NCBI GenBank assembly: GCA_938030895.1
Contig: CALHIV010000013.1
Span: forward strand, 1-64,000
Reading direction: 5' to 3'
Length of the DNA stretch: 64,000 bases
Source of the DNA: an uncultured Nitrososphaerales archaeon
Lineage (GTDB): Archaea > Thermoproteota > Nitrososphaeria > Nitrososphaerales > Nitrosocaldaceae
Both the position numbers and the translations under genes were made by a program. This document shows, one piece after another, positions 35,079 to 39,823 of this stretch. Numbering within the stretch: position 1 is the stretch's first letter; each line of letters starts with the position of its first letter. The notes under the pieces were generated by a model. The model searched no databases, was not told the DNA's origin, and saw only the letters and a program-made list of their open reading frames with translations.

Positions 35079-36107
35079 TTAATTGATGGCGAGCATCCTT
35101 TCTATTGCTCTCCTTGCCTTAGTTGCTACATCTTCTGGAACCTTGACCTCATAGACCATATCCCTTAACGATCTATACACCTTATCGAGTGTTATCATCT
35201 TCATGTACTTGCATACAGCATCATTACTTATAGGGATGAACTCCTTCTCAGGGTTCTCCTTCTTCAGCCTGTAGAGTATACCTATCTCTGTAGCAACTAT
35301 CAGCCTCTTTGCACTACTCTGCTTTGCATACCTCATCATACCCTCTGTTGATAGGAACTTCACCAATGATGCATTACTGCTACTACCATTCCCACTGCTA
35401 TTACTTACTACACATCCATACCCACTCCCATTCCTACTCCAATTCCCATTCCCATTACCGTTACCGTTACCAAAGTAGTACACCATCGAGGTTGTACATC
35501 CACACTCTGGGTGTATAAGGAACTCAGCATCCTTGTACATCTTTAGCATCTCAAGCACTAGAGAAGGTCTTATCCCAGCATGGACATGGCACTCCCCAGG
35601 CCATATGTAGATGTTCCTCCTCTTCGTAACCTCTGCAACATATGCTCCTAGGAACATATCTGGGAGGAAGAGTATAGGCTTATCATCTGGTATGCTCTTA
35701 ACTACCTTGACCGCATTGCTCGATGTGCAGCAGTAATCGCACTCAGCCTTCACATCTGCACTAGTGTTTATGTAGCATACAGTTACCGCATCTGGATGCT
35801 CTCTCTTCCATGCCCTTAACTGCTCAACCGTTATGGTAGAGGCTAGGGAGCATCCAGCCTCTAAATCTGGTATAAGCACTCTCTTATCAGGGCATATTAT
35901 GGAGGCTGTCTCAGCCATAAAGTGCACTCCACAGAATACTATAACCTTTGCATCAGTACTTGCTGCCTTTTGCGATAATGCTAGAGAGTCGCCTATGAAA
36001 TCAGCTACATCCTGAACCTCTGGGAGCTGGTAGTTGTGTGCAAGTATGATGGCATCCCTCTCCCTCTTCAGCCTCGTTATCTCTTGCTTAAGATCAGCTT
36101 CATCCAT
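35079..36107 (-). CDS. nadA: Quinolinate synthase, with low-complexity insertion
   Basis: [4Fe-4S] enzyme condensing iminoaspartate and dihydroxyacetone phosphate to quinolinate. Conserved parts: LAHNYQLPEVQDVADFIGDS, HFMAETASII, and HPECGCTTSMV with the usual cluster-region cysteines. Between that motif and KFLSTEGMMRYAK lies an extra Gly/Asn/Ser stretch of roughly 35 residues, partly GNGNGNGN, encoded by a short tandem repeat (about 35385-35470). The reading frame stays open, and conserved residues on both sides are intact. 342 residues. Confidence 0.94.
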   Translation of the reverse strand: MDEADLKQEITRLKRERDAIILAHNYQLPEVQDVADFIGDSLALSQKAASTDAKVIVFCGVHFMAETASIICPDKRVLIPDLEAGCSLASTITVEQLRAWKREHPDAVTVCYINTSADVKAECDYCCTSSNAVKVVKSIPDDKPILFLPDMFLGAYVAEVTKRRNIYIWPGECHVHAGIRPSLVLEMLKMYKDAEFLIHPECGCTTSMVYYFGNGNGNGNGNWSRNGSGYGCVVSNSSGNGSSSNASLVKFLSTEGMMRYAKQSSAKRLIVATEIGILYRLKKENPEKEFIPISNDAVCKYMKMITLDKVYRSLRDMVYEVKVPEDVATKARRAIERMLAIN

Positions 36108-39598: not shown

Positions 39599-39709
39599 TG
39601 GACCGGGCGGGATTCGAACCCGCGACCTTTCCCATGCCACGGGAATATCCTACCAGGCTAGACGAGTGGCCTGCCGTATCATCTATTGGCGCTATACAGC
39701 AACCGGCCC
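39599..39709 (-). tRNA. tRNA-Ala (GGC) with a 37-nt intron after position 7
   Basis: Minus-strand exons are 39703-39709 (GGGCCGG) and 39599-39665. Acceptor GGGCCGG pairs with CCGGTCC and contains G3:U70, the alanine identity pair; the discriminator is A. The anticodon stem-loop is TTCCC-GTGGCAT-GGGAA (GGC). The intron (39666-39702) lies between tRNA positions 7 and 8. It folds into a canonical bulge-helix-bulge: bulge GGT, 4-bp helix GGCC/GGCC, bulge ACT, and inner 8-bp stem TGCTGTAT/ATACGGCA. Cutting after the second base of each bulge restores a normal 74-nt tRNA. CCA is encoded at 39596-39598, unlike the other tRNAs here. Confidence 0.9.
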
Positions 39710-39823
39710 GTTCTTTACCATGGCCCGATCCAGATAGAGTTTGATCCATCTTCTTAATAATCTTCCTTTCTATCCATTTCAATATATTTAAATACCCTTT
39801 CTCTTAAGTTTAGGGGAAAGGAG

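Follow-up and report, generated by a model that had tools for sequence, protein, structure and literature searches.

A tRNA-Ala(GGC) gene of Candidatus Nitrosocaldus with an intron at position 7/8 and a probable surrogate acceptor strand in its leader

The minus strand at positions 39709-39599 of the window (the whole 64,000-nt stretch of DNA that was analysed) was found to carry the tRNA-Ala(GGC) gene of Candidatus Nitrosocaldus, split by a small intron beside the acceptor stem. The precursor of this single-copy gene, with its bulge-helix-bulge (BHB) intron at 7/8, is probably made spliceable by a surrogate acceptor strand encoded in its leader. The radical-SAM protein adjoining the gene shared 86-90% identity with four loci from Candidatus Nitrosocaldus and archaeon HR04, and on sequence the window belongs to this thermophilic ammonia-oxidising genus.

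The minus-strand letters of the gene are GGGCCGG / TTGCTGTATAGCGCCAATAGATGATACGGCAGGCCAC / TCGTCTAG...CCGGTCCA, and its parts are as follows:

39703..39709, minus strand: exon 1, GGGCCGG, the acceptor 5' strand (tRNA positions 1-7)
39666..39702, minus strand: 37-nt intron at 7/8, with an 8-bp inner stem (39701-39694 with 39679-39672)
39599..39665, minus strand: exon 2 (positions 8-73) with anticodon GGC; 39606-39600 form the acceptor 3' strand and 39599 is the discriminator A
39702..39708, minus strand: 5' half of the BHB, with helix GGCC at 39708-39705 (tRNA positions 2-5) and, at 39704-39702, bulge GG^T
39665..39671, minus strand: 3' half of the BHB, with GGCC of the intron at 39671-39668 and, at 39667-39665, bulge AC^T

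The initial annotation had placed a 37-nt insert between the acceptor stem and the D-arm at 7/8, and sequence, coordinates and anatomy all agreed with this. The bulges, helix and inner stem that it described were all present: a strict BHB was found at the junctions, with a 4-bp GGCC/GGCC helix, two 3-nt bulges (GGT and ACT) and the 8-bp inner stem, as well as a 3-bp outer helix missing from the earlier description. Four central and at least eight inner pairs were obtained in none of 200,000 shuffles of the intron. Excision of the intron in silico gave, as had been claimed, an exact tRNA, namely a complete 74-nt tRNA-Ala with anticodon GGC and the G3:U70 pair, which matched the intronless genes of relatives. 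The heptamer GGGCCGG is also the 5' end of those intronless Ala(GGC) genes, which supports the assignment of exon 1. The insertion point was ambiguous by one base (7/8 or 8/9), a T starting both the intron and exon 2; because the introns of several relatives start with A, the site was taken to be 7/8, not 8/9.

The concern that a tRNA finder could miss such a gene was borne out by ARAGORN, which called tRNAs for Asn, Thr and Pro in the window and did not report the Ala(GGC) gene. The Rfam tRNA model covered just 39599-39672, with 33.8 bits. The intron-aware search that had been proposed was carried out with a purpose-written splicer combining cloverleaf and BHB; it recovered the gene with a single 37-nt intron at 7/8, and the score was 49 before removal of the intron and 68 after it.

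The genome (1.37 Mb, 24 contigs, rated 98.7% complete) was searched for tRNA genes. Another intact tRNA-Ala(GGC), beside which the present copy might have been silent as the initial annotation cautioned, was not found in this 98.7%-complete genome. Ala(UGC) and Ala(CGC) have genes of their own, whose introns lie near position 42-45. The alanine codons in 25 long open reading frames of the window were GCA (486), GCU (271), GCG (69) and GCC (57). Because GCC and GCU account for 328 of these 883 codons, tRNA-Ala(GGC) is needed.

The genome also encodes two PF01974/PF02778 proteins, the alpha and beta subunits of a splicing endonuclease. The alpha subunit aligned over its full length to the catalytic subunits of A. 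pernix (3p1z), S. tokodaii and P. aerophilum and kept the catalytic Y, H and K, as well as a KPK loop with the loop lysine. In this CSL loop, IPKPKDAEF of the query was aligned to VEKPRGADF, with a conserved Lys and a following basic residue (K44 and R46 of A. pernix; for their role, see PMC12397907). The beta subunit is a separate second subunit from which the catalytic His is absent. The heteromeric enzyme that had been suggested as a check is therefore encoded, with a catalytic alpha and a non-catalytic beta, and appears to be of the broad-specificity type. RtcB, the ligase, and RNase P RNA are both encoded as well. In the beta gene (L032) there is a Ser/Asn-rich insert, RKDDSDSNSKSNNNRTE, which resembles in character that of a quinolinate synthase (NadA-like) protein in the window (35079-36107, minus strand), which has a Gly/Asn/Ser-rich low-complexity insert, GNGNGNGNW...; this latter insert was found in four Nitrosocaldus relatives, with differing length and sequence.

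The position of the Ala intron, 7/8, was conserved in 12 Nitrososphaerales genomes from four families, whereas the intron itself varied in sequence and, from 10 to 57 nt, in length. All six Nitrosocaldus genomes had it, at 27 to 57 nt, with the inner stem kept and the loop not, and their exon 2 was 97-100% identical. Outside Nitrosocaldus, the introns were of 15 nt (G006), 25 nt (G007), 33 nt (G031), 10 nt (G055), 12 nt (G072) and 26 nt (G077). The BHB was retained in every relative bearing the insert; that of the 10-nt intron in G055 is weak and does not exceed chance. Among 350 genomes of the order, 147 had an intact Ala(GGC) 5' part without an intron, some of them from two of the four intron-bearing families. 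A pattern match in G022 was rejected as an intron gene, being an intronless Ala gene with GGGCTGG upstream. The published length range of archaeal introns is 11-129 nt (PMC4090602); the shortest introns at 7/8 had 12 nt (L083, G072) and 10 nt (L050, G055), the latter below the published minimum of 11. A silent pseudogene, or an insert that stays in, is extremely improbable, considering that this is the sole Ala(GGC) gene found, that exon 2 is nearly invariant (97-100%) across the genus, that the BHB is preserved in all insert-bearing relatives and that 328 of 883 alanine codons in the window are GCC or GCU.

The BHB recruits acceptor nucleotides 2-5 for its central helix, so that it and the acceptor stem are mutually exclusive. 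When the pre-tRNA was folded without its leader and without constraints, it retained the true acceptor stem, not the BHB. This fold was considered as an argument against the intron and rejected as such; it indicates the conflict between the two structures instead. The initial interpretation was thus supported but incomplete, since both the exclusion and a complementary strand in the leader had gone unnoticed. The leader contains the following features:

39725..39731, minus strand: surrogate acceptor 5' strand GGATCGG, forming 7 bp with tRNA positions 66-72 (39606-39600)
39750..39762, minus strand: TATA-like box, GATTATTAAGAAG, lying some 25-28 nt 5' of the surrogate strand

GGATCGG was present in the leader of all six Nitrosocaldus genomes, 21 to 39 nt upstream of position 1, and pairs 7/7 with the acceptor 3' strand CCGGTCC. 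It was invariant in these genomes, while the spacer downstream of it varied from 14 to 32 nt. The leader strands of the 12 intron-bearing Ala genes were GGATCGG, GGACCGG, GGATCGA or GGACTGG, with a match of 6-7 bp. The bases immediately 5' of the Ala leader strand were likewise conserved. An AT-rich box lies about 25-30 nt upstream of the surrogate in all four acceptor-proximal intron genes of the genus, and this roughly constant distance suggests a transcription start at or close to the surrogate strand. Two leader bases before +1 pair with D-stem positions 10-11 in 9 of 10 genes with the intron versus 5 of 15 without it (p = 0.012); since 6 of the 10 intron genes come from one genus, this conserved outer helix counts as no more than a hint.

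In all 12 intron-bearing Ala genes (L042-L050, L070, L081, L083), the base of the leader strand facing U70 is A, never G, so that the surrogate stem lacks the G3:U70 identity pair for AlaRS. The possibility that the leader copy is the true Ala exon 1 was rejected, since there is no G3 in GGATCGG and the intronless relatives show GGGCCGG. It was also rejected for Ser and for the Met gene of the same genome, in which mismatches would remain.

Folding energies were calculated at 37 C for the 11 precursors with usable models, Met of G006 being left out. When the 3' strand was kept from the leader, the true acceptor stem was more favourable than the BHB in 10 of the 11 precursors; when the surrogate was allowed, the BHB together with the surrogate was predicted to be more favourable than the true acceptor stem, again in 10 of 11. 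After splicing, the surrogate was still preferred, with a margin in secondary-structure energy of 2 to 9 kcal/mol (37 C). Strand exchange would therefore need tertiary contacts, RNase P or kinetics.

Three further genes of the same genome have introns in or near the acceptor stem, located within nucleotides 1-11 of the tRNA:

G000:C11:153736-153875 (L084): Gln(UUG), intron at 10/11, leader strand AGCCCGG
G000:C19:16194-16304 (L104): Met(CAU), intron at 4/5 and a second intron, leader strand AGCGGGA
G000:C5:17750-17834 (L096): Ser(UGA), intron at 8/9, leader strand GCCGG

In this genome, all four acceptor-proximal intron genes were found to have a leader strand that can pair with their own acceptor 3' strand. 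Shuffling of the leaders gave p values of 0.0065 for Ala, 0.0005 for Gln, 0.016 for Met and 0.056 for Ser, whose match of only 5 bp is borderline when taken alone (p about 0.05). Among the 28 other tRNA genes of the genome, Gly(CCC) alone was equally striking. When leaders were assigned at random within the genome, the observed sum was reached in 0 of 20,000 trials. The strand might instead be a promoter or initiator element, or a chance match, unconnected with splicing; its fixed distance from the TATA-like box and the conserved bases just 5' of the Ala strand would fit such an element. However, the strand is gene-specific and tracks the gene's own acceptor, random leader assignments were never as good, and the strand is missing from the other tRNA genes of the genome, so that this explanation is regarded as very unlikely.

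The association of leader strand and intron was also observed in relatives. The leader match was found in 12 of 12 Ala genes with the 7/8 intron versus 1 of 14 intronless ones at equal score, and in all Gln genes with the 10/11 intron (8/8), Ser genes with the 8/9 intron (6/6) and Met genes with the 4/5 intron (6/6). It was found in neither of two Ser genes and in none of three Met genes lacking the respective intron. Five of 30 intronless Gln genes matched at a loose threshold, and an exact close tandem copy was present in none of the 30. Pooled, the match occurred in 32 of 32 acceptor-proximal intron genes versus 8 of 77 controls, with a nominal p of 2e-20 that overstates the significance because the genomes are related, making the counts non-independent, and because the score cut-off was picked after the data had been seen. 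A 60-nt leader yields an equally good match in about 10% of controls.

Cleaner evidence than this count was provided by a converse search that was blind to introns, in which the tandem copy AGCCCGG...AGCCCGGTRG was sought across 400 genomes of the class. It gave 25 tRNA loci in 23 genomes, and all 25 were interrupted after position 10. Nineteen of the 25 were identified as Gln(UUG) genes with the intron at 10/11, and one of the 25 lies outside the order; six Gln loci with more than one intron, along with several further loci, were left unassigned by the splicer. Two of the tandem AGCCCGG matches (L131 and L132) were discarded because they were not tRNA genes.

A rival explanation is that the intron is an ordinary non-canonical BHB intron and that the leader strand, with no processing role, is a scar of the intron's origin, left when the tRNA 5' end was duplicated by recombination or integration. 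The Gln copies are near-perfect tandem repeats 0-9 nt apart, the repeated strand also occurs in some intronless genes (Gly(CCC) of the same genome and Ala of G022), and insertions leave tRNA 5' fragments in Caldiarchaeum (PMC3293823). Yet the Ala strand is identical in six Nitrosocaldus genomes whose spacer varies from 14 to 32 nt, and the link between leader strand and intron holds for four tRNAs and many families. Moreover, leader strands depart from exon 1 while preserving the pairing, as in GGATCGG or GGACCGG versus GGGCCGG, AGTGGGG versus AGCGGGG and GCTGGGA versus GCCGGGA. A scar is thus considered unlikely, though less so than a promoter element. In the Gly(CCC) gene mentioned above (L002 1482-1515; G000:C11:113977-114010), a tandem GCGGGGT...GCGGGAT stands at the 5' end and an intron was not found; the tandem strand is possibly the remnant of a lost one.

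According to the preferred reading, in which the surrogate has a role in processing, the tRNA-Ala(GGC) precursor would be transcribed with GGAUCGG near its 5' end, and this strand would pair with the acceptor 3' strand (66-72) and close a tRNA-like body. With positions 66-72 occupied, the true 5' strand would be free to pair with the intron as the BHB. The alpha2beta2 endonuclease would then cut at GG^T and AC^T, and the exons would be joined by RtcB. The true acceptor strand would displace the surrogate after splicing and before the RNase P cut that would remove the leader.

With somewhat less assurance, we favour a general form of this reading, in which archaeal pre-tRNAs with introns in or adjacent to the acceptor stem begin with a surrogate strand acting as an RNA switch: a temporary stem would license BHB splicing, the true strand would displace the surrogate, splicing would precede 5' maturation, and the Ala precursor would be without G3:U70. 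Acceptor-strand BHB introns face a folding conflict that a surrogate in the leader would resolve. The model predicts the order of tRNA maturation (splicing, then RNase P), suggests how introns at the 5' end of tRNA genes could be acquired, maintained and lost, and gives a rule usable to find or check acceptor-proximal introns overlooked by annotation.

Non-canonical BHB introns of tRNA genes are documented in Thermoproteales, Thaumarchaeota and Caldiarchaeum (PMC4090602, PMC8450103, PMC3293823), and they are known in thaumarchaea and in acceptor-stem regions (PMC4090602, PMC8450103, PMC12397907). In thaumarchaea they are common enough for a dedicated search model in tRNAscan-SE 2.0. Because such introns are well documented, the Ala intron as first noted is ordinary for such a genome and is a further case of the known type: it is short, with a 4-bp helix, two 3-nt bulges and a predicted cut after the second bulge nucleotide, and there are many introns per genome, as is usual for archaeal introns of this kind. 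Unlike the reviewed introns, it lies at 7/8, which is not among the positions named (3/4, 20/21, 22/23, 25/26, in an open-ended list). The endonuclease resembles the (alpha-beta)2 enzymes of crenarchaea (A. pernix 3p1z/3ajv, P. aerophilum 2zyz; PMC12397907) in the catalytic residues and loop lysine of alpha and in its non-catalytic second subunit; judged from its gene sequences, it shows nothing notably different.

No description of intron-bearing tRNA genes whose leader duplicates the acceptor 5' strand was found in the open-access PMC literature, and since the search was restricted to that literature, the novelty of such a strand is provisional; if confirmed experimentally, the surrogate acceptor strand would be a new feature of a known intron type. 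The closest likeness in function is to the split tRNAs of Nanoarchaeum and Caldivirga (PMC3218864), in which extra pairing of leader and trailer holds the parts together until BHB splicing. In split tRNAs, two transcripts pair at the splice junction, whereas here there is one transcript and the acceptor stem is duplicated.
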